A stretch of 64,000 bases of DNA from contig PSQN01000017.1 of the NCBI GenBank assembly GCA_002989075.1, positions 372,001-436,000 on the forward strand, in the 5' to 3' direction. The DNA comes from Arthonia radiata (Eukaryota > Ascomycota > Arthoniomycetes > Arthoniales > Arthoniaceae). The notes below the pieces were generated by a model that did not search any database, had not been told where the DNA came from, and worked only from the letters and a program-made list of their open reading frames with translations. Of this stretch, positions 20,695-58,537 are shown piece after piece. A program made the position numbers and the translations under genes. The first letter of the stretch is position 1. Each line of letters begins with the position of its first letter.

Positions 20695-22329
20695 GATCCG
20701 GTTAGGACGTGTGATCCGGTGGTTACATTTTGTTAGGGGATGGGAGGTGGGGGGTGTGTGTGGGGACTTGTGGTGTGTGAGGGTTAAAGTGTTGAAAGGA
20801 TAGGATGATGAAGGAAGAGAGGCAAGGTGAGCGAGGAGGGAAATGGTGTTTCAGAGGGTTGCTTGTGAAGCTGCGCGTGTTACATCAAAGTTGGTCATTG
20901 TACGATGTTGCCACGTTAGTAGTCCGGATTTGTCAAATATTCTTCTACTGTGACTCGGTCCGTCACGGTCGGCAATGAGACGAGCGATTAGCATTTGTGC
21001 TGCAGACTGAAGGCCAGGTGCGATGTGATCGGCTCGACCGGCTGAGCAGAGAAGCTCGGTTCATCATGCGCGCCTGACGTAAATCTGGTCAATAACTACT
21101 TAGTTCTCAACGCCTCCTCATCCTTATATTTCTTCAGTGGGCGCGCCTTCGAGGTCTAGGAAGGAGCTCCATCCTCCGTACTTTTCTGCAGACCACGGTA
21201 CGCCGTGCGTTCACAAAGTCGGTCAATCGGCATTGGCTGTGCATGATCCTTCGAGCGATGCGAATCCTTCCGACCCCACAGTCTCCATCGCACCAGTCTC
21301 GACTGGACTCAATGCTGAGTATTGGTAGTCACACCTCTACTGCAAGTCAGTGCTTGCTTTTCTGCCATCGCTACTGGCCATGGTAAAATCCTCATGGGTT
21401 CCCACGAAGGTGTATACGCATCTTCGGTCTGATCCGCAGTATGAGGCGTTGAGGACAACATTAACGGTGGTACTATCGGCAAATTCGCGTGTTCAAGAAG
21501 TCTCCGAGGGACACCAACATATACAACCGATGTCTGTACTCGTCACCCTGGCGGTCGGTCCACGATCGCACTCCTATCCGACCATCAGGATGCTCCTAGC
21601 CTCCCTCTCGACTTCAACTGGACGGTCCGTGCACAATAACATGAGCAAGGACTCGCCGAAATTTGGAACGTTGCCTTGGCACAACCAAGAGTGGGCCACC
21701 TTGATCTCTGGTGAATCTGCAATGCTACGACGTCCATCTTGTTCCATGCTCGCCGGACTTCACCGCCGGATTGCAGCTACGTTGAGGATTGCTTGTGTCT
21801 CCCTCATCCGATGGAGTGTGGCAGATCTCCTTGCACGCTATGGTCAGTAAAGGGTGCTACCCCCGGTTTTCAGAAGCAGTTACGCTTGATTGTGCTTGGC
21901 TTAGCCGGATCAGGTCTCAGTAGAGGGTCTCAGCGGCAAGCGCGCGCGACCACGCCAAACGCTGCATTTGCGACGCGCCCCTGTAGCCGGCCATGCCGAG
22001 AAGCTGCATGGTCATGCGTCGCTGTGCATTCTCCTTCGCAAGAGTCAACGAAACCTCTCTTCTCGTTCTGTGATTATGTATGTTCTGATTCATCTAGCGT
22101 TCCAGACGACACGCATCCCTGAATTATATGTGGGTGCTCAGCTGGCATCCTTCGATCTTCAGTCGAAGCCTACGGTATCTCCTTTTACCCAAGCTTTAGA
22201 ACACGATAAATAGATGTCGTGTCTCTCAGACTTCTTGACTTTAGCAGCGCTCTCATTTCATTGATTCGATCTATAAGACTTTTTATCTTGGGTGCTGGTC
22301 CACGAAATCTAGTACTCACCATCATCACC
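20695..22329. other. Gene-poor stretch, possibly holding decayed coding sequence
   Basis: No intact gene is convincing. Between about 21350 and 22120 two overlapping plus-strand frames run long (166 and 127 codons), and short protein-like pieces appear in several frames, such as DNINGGTIGKFACS near 21450. This mosaic could be a frameshifted relic, or chance. The last 100 bases are the promoter and leader of the repeat-protein gene. Confidence 0.3.
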
Positions 22330-23277
22330 ATGCGCACCTCAACTCTCCTCACCTCCCTCCTTCAGCTCACCCTCATCAGCGCGCTTCCTAATCCAGTCCC
22401 AGCAGAGGCAGCGATCACCGCCGCGCCTTCCCTCGAGGACCGCGCTCTCTTCGAGCCCGACGCTCCCAGCACGAAGAAATCTTGCAAAAACCTTCTGGGC
22501 CCCTGCAACGCCCTAGACGCCCGCGACGAACAGCCCACCTCCATCCCCATCAATATTAAGCCACCCAAGAAGCTCTCGCGCGCATCTTCTGTCATCAAAC
22601 CAACTATCCCACACGCCGCACTCGAGCAGGTTACCGCCCTTGACAAACGCAATGCAGAACCGACTGCCGAGGCCAAGTCGAGAAGCAAAAGAATGAGTGT
22701 CTCGCGCCCCCCACAAGGACAAGCAACGGCTCTTGAGGTCCGCGACGAACAACCCACGTCCATCCCTATCAACATCAAGCCGCCGAAGAAGCTCTCACGT
22801 GCGTCTTCCGTCATCAAACCGACCATCCCGCACACGGCGGATGTGACAGACCTCGAGATCCGCGACGAACAGCCCACGTCTATCCCTATCAATATTAAGC
22901 CGCCCAAGAAGCTCTCACGTGCGTCTTCTGTCATCAAGCCAACCATCCCGCACGCCGCTGAGGCAGAGGTGACCGCGGCGCCGCTGCGAGAGAGAGCAAA
23001 TGCACCGGTCCCACAGGGCCCGTCGGCTGTGCAACCGGTCAAGTGTTTGCTTGGGTGCAAAGCGCTCGAGGTCCGCGATGAGCAAACGGCTTCGATTCCT
23101 ATTAACATCAAGCCACCGATAGTGCACTCACGGGCGTCTTCCGTTAACGGACCGAGTATTCCGCACGCTGCAGCAGAGGTGACGGCGGCGCCCGTGCTGG
23201 AGAGAGCGAATGCGCCGGTTCCGCAGGCGCCGACGTTCGTTCGAACGGCTAAGTGTTTGCTTCCGCCTTGTCATTGA
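22330..23277 (+). CDS. Secreted protein built of tandem repeats, possible processed-peptide precursor
   Basis: Single exon, 315 aa. The N-terminus is a signal peptide (MRTSTLLTSLLQLTLISALP). The rest is almost entirely two alternating modules. Module B is 33 residues beginning RDEQPTSIPINIKPP and ending in VIKPTIPHAA. It is present at residues 65-97, 138-170, 178-210 and, degenerate, 249-281. Module A (ITAAP/VTAAP, then ERANAPVPQ, ending in a close cysteine pair such as KCLLGC or KCLLPPC) occurs three times. Candidate Kex2-type sites (LDKR, SRSKR, PKK) lie between modules. No catalytic domain is seen. Known fungal parallels are kexin-processed repeat precursors, including RiPP precursors, but no modifying enzyme is recognised nearby. 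Function is unknown. The start was chosen at the signal peptide; an upstream in-frame ATG at 22219 has no features. Confidence 0.7.
   Translation: MRTSTLLTSLLQLTLISALPNPVPAEAAITAAPSLEDRALFEPDAPSTKKSCKNLLGPCNALDARDEQPTSIPINIKPPKKLSRASSVIKPTIPHAALEQVTALDKRNAEPTAEAKSRSKRMSVSRPPQGQATALEVRDEQPTSIPINIKPPKKLSRASSVIKPTIPHTADVTDLEIRDEQPTSIPINIKPPKKLSRASSVIKPTIPHAAEAEVTAAPLRERANAPVPQGPSAVQPVKCLLGCKALEVRDEQTASIPINIKPPIVHSRASSVNGPSIPHAAAEVTAAPVLERANAPVPQAPTFVRTAKCLLPPCH
22522..23172 (+). repeat. 99-bp coding repeat, four copies
   Basis: Copies at 22522-22620, 22741-22839, 22861-22959 and 23074-23172. The first three encode nearly identical peptides with mostly synonymous differences. The fourth has diverged (PPIVHS in place of PPKKLS, NGPS in place of IKPT). 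The spacers differ in length, so this is a dispersed intragenic repeat, not a simple array. Confidence 0.92.
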
Positions 23278-34704: not shown

Positions 34705-37191
34705 ATGGCGATCTCTCTCAAAGCAGCAGTTCTCGTCATCTCAGATACCGCTGCTAATGACCCGTCGACCGACCGATGTACGGACACGCTCAAAGCAGTC
34801 TTCGACGAGAACCAAGCTACCACCAACATCGAGTTTACAGAACGCCGCTTTGTGCCTGACGATGTCCTCAAGATCCAGGGGGCGATCACAAGATGGACAG
34901 ACGATAGAATTGGTGATGATGCCATCAACCTGATCGTCTGCAGCGGTGGGACTGGATTTGCTAGGAAAGATGTCACACCTGAGGTAAGTTGAGTTTGAAG
35001 TTCGGCTTGAGCAGCAGTGTCAACCATGAGATACTGAAGTTGTTCGTTTTGCGAAGACTTCAGCTGACGTGCATTCGCGAAGACGGTATCACCATTGATT
35101 CATCGACATGCTCCAGGACTAGTGTGAGTAGATTGCAGCCCGGTCTTTCATGTTCGTAACTAATGAGTCGATACCAAAGTCATCTCATGCTCTCATCATC
35201 GCTCAAGGTCACACCGTGTATGCTCAGCCCACCACGTTGTCTACGTACGACGCTGACTCTTGATAGTCGCTGCCATGTCTCGTCCAGTAGCTGGCGTACG
35301 GCATTCTACGCTCATATTGACTCTGCCGGGATCCCCCAAAGGTGCCAAAGAGAACCTAGAGGCTGTAATAAAGCTTCTCCCACACGCTTGTCAGCAAGCC
35401 GCCGGACTAGACTCACGTCAGGCTCACATTGGCGGAACTGATCGACTCGAGAGGGATGTTGGTCTCACGAGCCGTTCACAAGCTCATGCCTCTCATGCTT
35501 CTCATCAAGATCACTCACATACGCACAGCCACGATCATGTTCATCATCACGGACCAAAGTCTCATACTTCTGCCGACCCGTCCCTAGGACCTACTCGTCG
35601 CGCCCGGCAGTCCCCATTTGAGATGCAATCCGTGCCCGCAGCGCTTAGACTGATCGCAGAGCATACACCATCGACTGTCGCAACGACTCACCGCGTAAAT
35701 CAGTCACTTCTCACCCATATTCTCGCGTCGGATGTAAAAGCTGTGGAGTCTGTGCCAGCCTTCCGTGCCTCTATCGTCGATGGCTACGCAGTGAAATGCA
35801 CATCTTCGGCTGGCACAAGTGAGAAAGCTACCTTTCCTGTAGCATTTGCGGCGCATGCTGAGGCCGGCAAAGAGCGTGAGCTAAAGAGTGGTAAGTCCAA
35901 CAGTATTCACATTCCCAACTTTGCTGCTTGCGCAGCGCTCGGTTGGCCAGCCCAGCATAGTATAGCATAATGTGTATCATACGGGCAATCACTGGGGTGG
36001 GCCGTACGCAGGATGGCACCGGACAGCTGCTCTCGATTGTGTGTTGTGCACCGTCTGCGAAAAGTCTCTGCTGTGAGCGCTGCCCAGAATTCTTGTACTG
36101 ACGTGCTGTCCATAGGCGAGATAGCTCGAATAACTACGGGTGCACCGCTGCCGAGCGGTTCTGACGCTGTCGTTATGGTCGAGGACACAAAGGTAGCTTC
36201 GACAAAGCCTGCTGAGTCGGACGAAGGTGAAGAGGAAGACACAGTCGAGATTTTGACAGATGCTGTGAAGAAAGGTGAGAACGTACGTGAGCCTGGCTCG
36301 GATGTCAAGGAAGGAGCCGTGATCATGAAGGCTGGCGAAGGTATCTCGGCGCTTGGTGGCGAGTTCGGTCTTCTTGCGTCGTGTGGCGTTCAGGAGGTAG
36401 AGGTGTACCAGAAGCCGGTTGTGGGCGTACTGAGCACTGGCGACGAGATTGTGCCTCACGATCACTCGGGAACGCTCAAGTCAGGTGAGGTGAGAGATAC
36501 TAACAGACCAACGCTGCTGTCGGCAGTAGCTGCGCAAGGCTATGAAGCAGTTGATCTGGGCATCGTCAAGGACAAAGCCGGTGAGCTTGAGTCAAAGCTT
36601 CGCTCTGCACTGAGCCGCTGTGATGTGCTCATCACGTCCGGCGGTGTGTCAATGGGCGAGCTTGATTTGCTGAAGCCGACCATTGAGCGTAATTTGGGTG
36701 GCACCATCCATTTTGGACGCGTGAGTATGAAGCCAGGTAAGCCGACCACGTTTGCCACTGTCTCTTCCAGCAGCATCAAAGACGCTGCGAGTGGAGAGCG
36801 AGGTGTTGGTGTGTACGACAGTAAGGTCATCTTCAGCTTGCCCGGCAACCCTGCAAGCGCTGCTGTGACGTTCCTCCTCTTTGTGTTGCCAGCTCTGCAC
36901 AAGATGAGCGGCGTCGAGCCCGTCGGTCTGCCGCATGTTTGGGTCACGGCGGGAGAAGATTTCAAGTGCGACCCGCAAAGAGAAGAGTACCAGCGAGCCT
37001 TTGTCATGGCTGAGAAGGGAGGGAAAGGTATGCTCGTCGTAGTGAGTACTGGCGGCCAGAGAAGCAGCCGGATTGGAAGCTTTCAAGGTGCCAATGCCCT
37101 GGTGAAATTGAGTCCAGGCGGCGTCGTCGTCAAGAAAGGTGATTTTGTCCAAGCTCTGGTAATGGATAAAATCGCTGGACCAATATCGTGA
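34705..37191 (+). CDS. cnxE: Molybdenum cofactor synthesis protein, MogA-MoeA fusion (gephyrin/CnxE type)
   Basis: Five exons: 34705-34983, 35083-35123, 35180-35217, 35267-35890, 36116-37191; 685 aa. The N-terminal MogA/MoaB-like domain (residues 1-~165: VLVISDT, ICSGGTG-type VCSGGTGF, MSRPVAGV, LPGSPKGAKENL) adenylylates molybdopterin. The C-terminal MoeA-like domain (from ~235: VDGYAV, RITTGAPLPSGSDAVVMVED, VLSTGDEIV, DTNRPTLLSAV, ITSGGVSMGE, MKPGKPTTFA, SLPGNPASA) inserts molybdate. Together they complete the cofactor for nitrate reductase and other molybdoenzymes. The linker is His-rich (DHSHTHSHDHVHHH), as in some homologues. The two small exons and the 225-nt intron were placed by domain continuity. 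Fungal genes have the domain order G then E, as here. Confidence 0.95.
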
Positions 37192-55854: not shown

Positions 55855-57571
55855 ATGCGGAACTTCGCCTTGCTAGTGGTCCTTGGCCTGGCCAGTGCGG
55901 CTGCTGTGGACCTTGAGAAGAGACAGGACAGCTCCAGCTCAGATGTCCCAGACTATTTCCAGACAACAGCTACTGATTTTCGAGGTCCAACTCCAACCGG
56001 CAATCCAGCTTTCCTTGCGGAGACCAACCCAGCACCGTTTCCCAGCCGGTCATACATCCCACCACAGCCGTTGGAGACGCAGGTACCCATCCAGGGTGCA
56101 CCCGAGGGCGGTAACATATACCAGCTTCATGGCCAGCTCTCACATTACTTTCCCAATCCTGATGGCTTCGGCGTGGATGAGTTTCCTTTGCCCAAGGGTG
56201 CCGACATCAGCTACCTGTACATGCTGAGCAGACACGGCTCTCGATACCCGACGTCAACCCCGAGCGTGGTCGGCAAGATCAGGAATGCCACAGGTAAGTA
56301 CACGGCCTCTGGTCAGCTCGCTTTCCTCAATGACTGGACCTACAAGCTGGGAGCTCAGATCCTGGTGCCGGTTGGGAAGCAGGAGTACGTTGATCCCCTA
56401 ATCAAGAAAGCTTTGGCAAACTTTTGTTGACGTTTTCAGACTTTTTGACAGTGGAACATTGCACCAGTACCTCTATGGTCATTTGTATGACAACAATGGT
56501 ACTAAGATCATCGCCCGTACGACCACCCAAGACCGTATGTTGCAGTCCGCGGAGTACTTTTTGGCTGGTTTTTTCGGCCTTCAATGGCCGCAGAACGCAA
56601 CTCTTGAGGTCATCATCGAGCAAGACGGCTTCAACAACACGCTTGCTGGCTACTACGAGTGCCCTGCATCTAATCTTCCAGCATCTCAAGGTGGCAACAA
56701 TGCGACCACGCAGTGGGCGAGCATCTATCTTGCCGATGCCACCTCGCGTATCAATGGCCAGATCCAGGGCCTTAACTTCACGGTCACTGACGTGTATAAT
56801 ATGCAATCGCTCTGTGCTTACGAGACTGTCGCGCTCGGCTACTCTGCATTCTGTGATCTGTTTACATACGAGGAATGGGAAGGTAAGGGCTCACCCAACA
56901 TGCTATCTCCGTTCGTGGGCTGATCATTTCTAGGTTACGAGTACTCGGTAGACATCAACTTCGCCGGCAACGACGCGTTCCAATCACCGACTGGCCGCGC
57001 CGTCGGCATCGGGTGGGCTCAAGAACTAATCGCGAGGATGACGCATCACTACGTCAATTCACCTGCCGGTACTCAAGCCAACACAACACTGGATAGCATG
57101 CCTTCCACCTTCCCTACTAATCAAGTGCTGAACTTCGATTTCTCACACGACACCAACATTATGTCCGACCTGACCGCGCTGGGTCTTACTCAGTTCGCAG
57201 ACGTCCTTCCGGCAGATCACATCGTGGATCGTGACCTCATCGTCAGCCATCTGACGCCGTTCGGAGCCCGCCTCGACATCGAAGTCATTGACACGCCGCA
57301 GCCGATCAAGGCAGACGACTGTCTCGACTATGACGAAGGCGGTCCGACGCAGTACGTGCACTTCATACTCAACCAGCGGACCATCCCGCTCGGTAGAAGC
57401 TACCCGCAATGCGGCGATCTGCAGAACGGCTGGTGTGAAATGAGTGCTTTTTTGAACGCTACGGCGAACATTGTAGCTGAGTCGCAGTATGAGTATGCTT
57501 GCTTCGGCAATTACTCAGCGGTGCCGTATGGCACGCTGACCAATGGGGTGCCGCAGCCGCAGAGCTCTTAG
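55855..57571 (+). CDS. Secreted histidine acid phosphatase, phytase-like
   Basis: Exons 55855-56384, 56440-56882 and 56934-57571, 536 aa. It likely releases phosphate from phytate or other phosphomonoesters outside the cell. The catalytic RHGSRYP starts at residue 126, and the proton-donor HD pair is at residues 396-397 (DFSHDTN). The signal peptide MRNFALLVVLGLASAAA is followed by LEKR, a Kex2 site. Several N-glycosylation sequons occur (NNGT, NAT, NNT, NFT). FQTTATDFRGPTPTGNPAFL and LFDSGTLHQYLYGHLYDNNG match fungal members. Introns of 55 and 51 nt restore QELFDSG and EEWEGYEYS. It is longer than classical PhyA because of the N-terminal insert. Confidence 0.93.
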
Positions 57572-57739
57572 AGAGAGCCATGCGGAGGCCCATATGTACA
57601 GGTGCCGATGTTGCATATAATGTAATGATGACGTTGTCGATGTCGTTTGTATATGGATCCACAGATGTGAATGTTGTCGAACCACGTAGTACATATCATC
57701 ATTATACACATTACTTGCATCTTGTGCTGGCTCAAGATA

Positions 57740-57902
57740 CCTTCGGTAGCTCAGTGGTAGAGCATACGATTGCAGTGCCGGTCTGTGACTCAGGCCCGAC
57801 TCATCAAGTATCGTAGGGTCCCGTGGTTAGTGGTAATCCTGTCAATGCATTGCACAGGGCCTTGCGTCTAACACAAGCTCGGTTCGAACCACGGTTGAAG
57901 GT
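57740..57902 (+). tRNA. tRNA-Cys(GCA) gene with an anticodon-loop intron and a second insertion in the T-arm
   Basis: Three pieces, 57740-57775, 57810-57825 and 57883-57902, join into a complete 72-nt cloverleaf. The acceptor stem is CCTTCGG with TTGAAGG (two G.U pairs), D-stem GCTC/GAGC, anticodon stem TACGA/TCGTA, anticodon GCA at 57772-57774, T-stem CCGTG/CACGG and T-loop TTCGAAC. The discriminator base is T, as expected for tRNA-Cys. The first interruption (57776-57809, 34 nt) is at the canonical 37/38 site. The second (57826-57882, 57 nt; the boundary may shift by one base) separates T-stem from T-loop, where eukaryotic tRNA introns are not expected. The A-box and B-box words are intact in the DNA and TTTT follows near 57915, so polymerase III transcription is plausible. 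Whether it yields mature tRNA is unknown. Confidence 0.8.
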
Positions 57903-58537
57903 CAGAACTCTTTAATCTTTTGTACTTCTGGCATATTAGATTACTACTAACTTCACGGTCTTCGACACTTCGCTGACACTGTAGGTCGGTCTGCGCGCAT
58001 ACAGCATTGCAGATATTGACTGCGGACTCCAAATCTACCTTCGAGTATGCCAATGTTCCTCGGTCCTTGTAAATGCAAGGGGAATCCGTAAGCACGCGGA
58101 TATCCCCTTGCCTTCAAAGCGGCGAAATGTATATTTGCAGATAGTCGTGGCTTTCTTGCCGAAGACACACGATCTTATACGTCTATAACGAACAGTGAAC
58201 AGGCTTGCATCAATCTGAACTGGTGCCTTTGAAGCAATGGTCTTTCGAAGCACGCAGTGAAAGTGAAAAGTTATAACGACCCTGTCGTTCCTCGATATTC
58301 TGGGCGTGCTTAGTCAGCCAGCCCTACGAGAGGTCAACCAATGAAAGATGTCATTGGAATCTTTCCCGGCAGTCCCCTTCGTAGCTTCATCTGCGACAGC
58401 TCTTTAGCCGTCAGTCCTCAATTTAGCGAGTTTTGCCTCTCGTCGCTTCTCCGTCCCATTCTAAGCACTTTGTGAGCGTACAGCCGAGCCATCGACGTGC
58501 AAGCGTCTAATCGGCCTACTCCATCACATTATCAAAC
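57903..58537. other. Intergenic region between tRNA-Cys and QCR6
   Basis: This 635-bp gap holds the TTTT terminator of the tRNA near its left end and the QCR6 promoter at its right. No other gene is seen. Confidence 0.45.

Follow-up and report, generated by a model that had tools for sequence, protein, structure and literature searches.

The closest described systems fall into two kinds, spliceosomal introns in other non-coding RNA genes and ectopic introns in tRNA genes. The U6 RNA of Schizosaccharomyces pombe carries an mRNA-type intron in a Pol III transcript, which is removed by the spliceosome (PMC8917221). In lichen-forming ascomycetes, the rDNA contains short spliceosomal introns, and a 57-bp intron of Cladonia grayi was removed from Pol I transcripts in yeast (PMC8527467). 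For tRNA genes, the canonical introns occupy one fixed position, 37/38, and are spliced by an endonuclease without the spliceosome, and the available part of a 2026 review holds tRNA splicing apart as a spliceosome-independent process (PMC13149111). Several introns per tRNA gene, in the D, anticodon and T arms and including position 53/54, are described in Cyanidioschyzon merolae and some archaea (PMC9602550, PMC3978253), and the ectopic introns of C. merolae have been linked with the tRNA endonuclease and with BHB motifs (PMC3978253). The description of tRNAscan-SE 2.0, in its available part, treats noncanonical introns for archaea (PMC8450103). Our targeted literature search, which covered mostly titles and the first lines of abstracts and left most subscription papers and bioRxiv outside its coverage, found no report of spliceosomal introns in nuclear tRNA genes.

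The locus studied here lies in a window of 64,000 nt of DNA from the ascomycete Arthonia radiata, and coordinates without a contig name refer to this window. It holds a tRNA-Cys gene with inserts at 37/38 and 53/54, and GT-AG introns were found in 17 other tRNA genes of the same genome. As in the S. pombe U6 gene, a Pol III RNA is interrupted by a GT-AG intron, found here in each of the three U6 genes that passed the cut-off; however, the S. pombe case concerns one RNA family, whereas A. radiata has 28 sites in 17 tRNA genes. The lichen rDNA introns are likewise short and spliceosomal and interrupt genes of non-coding RNAs, but they occupy few sites in Pol I rRNA genes rather than tRNA genes. 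With C. merolae and archaea, A. radiata shares multiple and ectopic tRNA introns and the 53/54 site itself; in contrast, its introns have no strict BHB and carry GT-AG ends and branch sites. The nucleomorph of Guillardia theta, a relict algal nucleus, also has tRNA introns outside 37/38, many of them with no defined BHB (PMC3978253), a likeness drawn from the description and not from the intron sequences. Unlike the canonical introns with their single position, the 28-intron set occupies many positions.

Results

The tRNA-Cys(GCA) gene spans 57740..57902 on the forward strand, as do all its parts. It consists of a 5' exon (57740..57775; acceptor 5' strand, D arm, and anticodon arm up to position 37), a 34-nt intron at the canonical 37/38 site (57776..57809), presumably of the tRNA-endonuclease type judging by its position, a middle exon (57810..57825; position 38, anticodon stem 3' strand, variable region and T-stem 5' strand), a 57-nt insert at 53/54 (57826..57882), which we interpret as a spliceosomal intron whose 3' splice site is defective, and a 3' exon (57883..57902; T loop, T-stem 3' strand, acceptor 3' strand and T73). 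In letters, the gene is CCTTCGG TA GCTC AGTGGTA GAGC A TACGA TTGCAG (34 nt) A TCGTA GGGTC CCGTG (57 nt) TTCGAAC CACGG TTGAAGG T, and the 57-nt insert has one equivalent placement, 1 nt leftward. An earlier note on this DNA had given the gene and both inserts with the same coordinates and lengths, and the full cloverleaf that it described was reproduced: with both inserts removed, 21/21 stem pairs form, T73 lies at 57902, and ARAGORN calls a tRNA-Cys(gca) of 72 nt with a score of 117.7. Unspliced, the gene received no ARAGORN call and scored 16.3 bits against the Rfam tRNA model, below the cut-off of 29.

Removal of the 34-nt intron joins TTGCAG to ATCG, which matches an intact tRNA-Cys gene of the same genome (L002). 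A GT-AG reading of the 34-nt insert was rejected by eye, because position 37 would then be a T, which it is not in the intact gene. A TATA at -37 (57703..57706, forward strand) and a TTTT, a possible Pol III terminator, 15 nt downstream (57918..57921, forward strand) complete the picture at the sequence level of a functional tRNA gene with a full cloverleaf and a GCA anticodon. The presence of another intact tRNA-Cys in the genome, one of the conditions under which the earlier note would call the window gene a dead copy, is shown by L002 itself (C13:1951379-1951450; ARAGORN 121.4). The window tRNA-Cys is identical to it at 56/72 positions and differs at 16/72, and six stem pairs, read from the pair lists, are changed on both sides with pairing kept. 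Because all pairs are kept and six of them show two-sided changes, the window gene was selected as a tRNA after parting from L002.

The 57-nt insert begins with a 5' splice-site-like GTTAGT (57826..57831, forward strand), which starts exactly where the T-stem strand ends and which also opens one intron each in Tyr-GTA and Lys-TTT. A branch-site-like CTAAC follows at 57868..57872 (forward strand), with the branch A 11 nt from the 3' end by our count, compared with 10-15 nt in the other 28 introns. The length of 57 nt, the 5' splice site and the branch distance are all inside the range of those introns, and the 5' start and branch signal occur together in 0.024% of random 57-mers from the window. 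At the 3' end, the insert reads GG (57881..57882, forward strand) in place of AG, whereas 28/29 compared introns end in AG; it is therefore classed as defective or non-canonical and not as a normal member. The AG nearest upstream of the structural junction (57876..57877, forward strand) was rejected as a working 3' site, since its use leaves five extra nucleotides, CTCGG, in the T loop and lowers the ARAGORN score to 107.5 from 117.7. The insert had also been described as structured, with GTTAG pairing with CTAAC, but the stretch 57810-57902 folds no better than its shuffles (z 0.04); a stable structured element was therefore rejected, and the two motifs are better read as a putative 5' splice site and branch site than as stem arms.

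A search of the genome with the Rfam tRNA model gave at least 20 places, at least 18 of them over the cut-off (63 of 1065 candidates scored), one of them being the intact L002, and several of the other matches become complete only after the removal of inserts outside the anticodon loop. Two B-box motifs, GGTTCGANYCC (58 places) and GGTTCAANYCC (56 places), were also located, and all 114 places were inspected by eye, by script or both. The window tRNA-Cys gene lies outside these 114 places, and other B-box patterns, with 188, 253 and 258 matches, lie outside the inspected locus set. The motifs showed no enrichment over reversed controls (58 vs. 120 and 56 vs. 66); therefore, the tRNA calls were made from structure alone. 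Second names of the same gene were left uncounted (e.g., L033, L037, L039, L040, L044, L049, L050, L099 and L076-L079), as were the doubtful loci L089, L096, L101, L102 and L108 together with L022, L055, L057 and L074. The last four look like tRNA genes that are interrupted; L022, L055 and L074 have tRNA-like arms and B boxes, and no GT-AG removal gave a good tRNA from these three. At L057 (C11:461848-462248) and L131, the 3' acceptor strand is seemingly split, between CAGGA and CC, by GTTCGT...CCTAACGCGATCACAG, and further inserts are seen, one of them bounded by GTGGAAGG...CCTTCCAC as an inverted repeat.

The curated set holds 28 GT-AG introns of 49-61 nt in 17 tRNA genes, with three each in Ser-CGA, Asn-GTT and the initiator Met, two each in Arg-CCG, Thr-CGT, Ala-CGC, Tyr-GTA and Thr-TGT, and one each in Gln-CTG, Leu-CAG, Ala-TGC, Arg-TCT, Leu-TAA, Trp-CCA, Thr-AGT, Lys-TTT and Ile-AAT. 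A branch-like A lies 10-15 nt before the AG in 28/28, the branch site being identified by its motif. In the standard numbering of tRNA positions, the sites span 4/5 in the acceptor stem, the D stem, D loop, anticodon stem and loop, variable region, T stem and T loop, up to 64/65, and some of the introns split the A box or the B box. ARAGORN calls a tRNA in 17/17 spliced products and names four of them otherwise than we do by eye (Leu-CAG as SeC, Asn-GTT as Ala, Leu-TAA and Thr-AGT as unknown); Thr, Asn and other identities lean on what we take to be the usual look of fungal tRNAs. By our reading, one acceptor mismatch remains in the Ile-AAT product. Another 14 tRNA genes are without such introns (L002-L014 and L054), and canonical 37/38 introns occur in the same genome and often in the same genes, measuring 34 nt in the window gene and 6 to 76 nt elsewhere. 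Two of the 14 genes, L009 and L014 (C7:416249-416544), are an adjacent tRNA-Phe and tRNA-Pro with anticodon-loop introns of 72 and 76 nt according to ARAGORN, and the best unconstrained boundaries of these introns are other than GT-AG.

With the window insert included, the start is GT in 29/29 introns, with G at position 5 in 26/29 and T at position 6 in 25/29. These 29 introns form no common sequence family, the best local score being 12 against 10-13 in five shuffled sets. Introner-like elements occur as many near-identical copies in one genome; such an element, or another repeated mobile element, was rejected, as the 29 tRNA introns have no near-identical copies among themselves and the window stretch is unique in the 33.5-Mb, 16-contig genome. 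Likewise, the search for the insert elsewhere in the genome, which the earlier note had proposed, gave no second match of the 181-nt stretch 57730-57910.

For the branch-blind placement of introns, every GT..AG stretch of 40-110 nt was removed singly or in pairs, and the products were run through ARAGORN. Loci with tRNA arms then yielded high-scoring tRNAs, whereas the other B-box regions were nearly all blank, the exceptions being L102 (104.7) and L096 (100.1), which were kept among the 63 control regions despite their weak ARAGORN calls. The branch-like motif lies 10-15 nt before the AG in 17/17 branch-blind introns, compared with 2.4% of 1053 GT..AG control segments from the 63 regions, within a range that was fixed only once the set was known. 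The start is GTNNG in 16/17 of these introns compared with 24% of controls, and in 14/17 with the starts as first found, since two of them (the first of Thr-CGT and the second of Tyr) were shifted by 2-3 nt among equal-scoring products. For 11/28 boundaries (Ser 3, Asn 3, initiator Met 3, Lys 1 and Ile 1), the choice was made by script or eye with the branch motif known.

In boundary-free runs, the GT-AG product ranked first for Arg-TCT, Gln-CTG, the first Tyr-GTA intron, the second Ala-CGC intron and the two Thr-TGT introns, and it shared the first rank for Trp, Leu-TAA and the two Thr-CGT introns. Other products scored higher for Thr-AGT, Ala-TGC, Leu-CAG, the second Tyr intron, the first Ala-CGC intron and Lys-TTT; Arg-CCG, which was run as a one-intron gene, stands outside this comparison. 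When all pairs of start and end dinucleotides were compared, GT-AG had the top summed score (3197.7), followed by GT-CA (3082.0), and GT-AG was optimal or co-optimal for 13/28 introns against 5 for the next pair. For the remaining 15/28, some dinucleotide pair beats GT-AG. The pairs that do so number 184 for Lys-TTT, 47 for Ile-AAT, 31 for the second Tyr intron, 30 for the third Asn intron, 23 for the first Ala-CGC intron, 16 for the second Arg-CCG intron, 14 and 12 for the other Asn introns, 13 for the third initiator Met intron, and at most 5 for the rest. Since ARAGORN accepts long variable regions as well as introns in the anticodon, it is poor at telling boundaries apart there.

The junctions were also scored for BHB pairing in the archaeal and eukaryotic geometry, using the strict form (two 3-nt bulges and a 4-bp helix) and leaving relaxed forms (hBH) aside. 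The window junction reaches 6/9 at best, and 0/28 of the others reach 8/9, compared with 2.5% of random junctions; at the lower level of 7/9 pairs, the real junctions (9/28) are somewhat commoner than random ones (15.8%).

The only initiator tRNA-Met gene found (L130 and L136, C13:583980-584440, minus strand) carries three GT-AG introns. Its layout is AGCATCGTGGCGCAGCGGAAGC (51 nt) GCGCCGG (51 nt) GCTCATAACCCGGAGG (57 nt) ACACTGGATCGAAACCAGTCGATGCTA, followed by CTTTTT, and the gene shows A1-T72 and an ATCGAAA T loop, which are hallmarks of an initiator. With up to one mismatch allowed, the anticodon arm, GGCTCATAACCCGGAGG, matches the genome at a single place; a copy with an intron inside the arm would escape this search. 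If the assembly is complete and there is no further copy, the sole initiator tRNA of the cell would need splicing at three GT-AG introns. A tRNA-Gly-like stretch, GCATGGTCTAGTGGTAG, lies upstream of this gene.

In the U6 search (47 of 2173 candidates scored), three genes exceeded the cut-off, L137 (C12:477511), L138 (C14:1994194) and L139 (C2:1988232), and 3/3 contain a GT-AG intron. These introns measure 51-56 nt, lie at one common place after CCCCTGCA, and have TACTGAC 11 nt before the end by our count. With such an intron in each U6 gene that exceeded the cut-off, the spliceosome would be expected to act on Pol III transcripts in this organism. The seven 5S genes found (47 of 1547 candidates scored) are uninterrupted. 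The flanks were tested for 28 of the 32 resolved tRNA genes (17, 14 and the window gene): a TATA lies at -45..-20 in 18/28 (background 4.1%) and a T4+ run within 30 nt downstream in 21/28 (background 7.7%), which fits, as expected, Pol III genes with an upstream element.

In the window, a neighbouring protein gene, presumably encoding an acid phosphatase, has two probable mRNA introns on the forward strand, both placed by eye: one of 55 nt (56385..56439; GTACGT...TTGACGTTTTCAG), which is one of four frame-keeping joins and was picked with the protein sequence as guide, and one of 51 nt (56883..56933; GTAAGG...CTGATCATTTCTAG), one of two such joins. Both share the format of the tRNA introns. 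In a gephyrin-like gene, three candidate joins were tried, and none has such a branch motif; the protein (36013-37188) reaches up to 78% identity with its closest records, its best named matches being from Coniocarpon cinnabarinum and Alyxoria varia, both Arthoniomycetes. The hexamer enrichment for mRNA splice signals in the window yielded 96 anchors, too small a number to be of use, with GTNNGT at 15 per 96 vs. 15 per 168 in the control. At 22219-23277, a predicted protein has repeated segments, with DEQPTSIPINIKPPKKLSRASSVIKPTIPH occurring several times.

Discussion

We consider it likely, with good confidence, that the 57-nt insert of the window tRNA-Cys gene belongs to a large set of spliceosomal (GT-AG) introns that interrupt nuclear tRNA genes in this genome. 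Behind this reading stand the anatomy of the sequences, its recurrence in 17 other tRNA genes, the structure of the spliced products, the initiator gene and the introns of the U6 genes. Under such a mechanism, the tRNA genes would be transcribed with their introns included, probably by Pol III and with the help of the upstream TATA box. The spliceosome would then remove the GT-AG introns from the pre-tRNA by means of the 5' splice site, the branch site and the AG, and the tRNA endonuclease would separately remove the 37/38 introns, in an order of steps that we can only infer. The earlier note had considered a new intron class, which comes close to the present reading, though not in the archaeal or algal sense of its comparison: the insert is one member of a set of GT-AG tRNA introns that extends over the genome.

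Concerning the GG end, the simplest account is that the insert is a spliceosomal intron that lately lost its 3' AG. Since GG stands where the AG should be, the window copy is probably broken: the gene may no longer be correctly spliced, may be spliced poorly, or may contain a sequencing error at this place, and the first is the most likely. It is also possible that GG serves as a working 3' site. If the window copy is now inactive, the intact tRNA-Cys on contig C13 could be used instead.

A base-calling or assembly error, by which the 3' end would really be AG and the window gene intact and working, would fit the fact that a single substitution parts the insert from a rule that all 28 other introns follow; we nevertheless regard it as unlikely. 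It is quite unlikely that the window gene is a dead tRNA-Cys copy that took up an unrelated insertion whose splice-like signals arose by chance. The intact L002, the absence of the 3' AG from the insert and the lack of a second copy of the insert in the genome agree with a dead copy. However, a random 57-mer would very rarely carry the two signals where they are needed, as estimated above, the length and branch distance of the insert match those of the 28 other introns, and the 21 kept stem pairs, six of them with two-sided changes relative to L002, point to selection as a tRNA after the split. As for the earlier suggestion that a mobile insert had killed the gene, a mobile origin finds no support, given the single-copy 181-nt stretch and the 29 introns without a common family; its other half, a copy that has stopped working, may hold in view of the GG end.

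A tRNA-endonuclease (BHB) intron at an ectopic site is very unlikely. It would have a parallel in C. merolae, where tRNA-Ile(UAU) likewise has an intron at 53/54 and multi-intron genes also occur (PMC9602550), and a missing BHB is by itself no bar to it, because a defined BHB motif is often absent from the ectopic tRNA introns of the G. theta nucleomorph (PMC3978253). However, the strict BHB scores are low, and nothing about endonuclease introns would call for GT, AG and a branch site at a constant spacing.

With the spliceosomal reading preferred, it is very likely that much of the nuclear tRNA complement, with the only detectable initiator tRNA-Met among it, needs the spliceosomal removal of one to three introns from Pol III pre-tRNAs, besides the removal of endonuclease introns. 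If this is true, it would account for standard tRNA finders completing so few tRNA genes in this genome, and it raises the questions of how Pol III is recruited by A and B boxes split by introns, given that an upstream TATA is frequent, how splicing competes against the folding and modification of these RNAs, and whether the introns also occur in related fungi. It would also mean that spliceosomal introns can settle at many positions of very short, tightly folded Pol III genes, and it would break the division that holds tRNA splicing independent of the spliceosome. As the tRNAs would need the spliceosome, translation in A. radiata would directly require the machinery that splices mRNAs, for its tRNAs no less than for its mRNAs.
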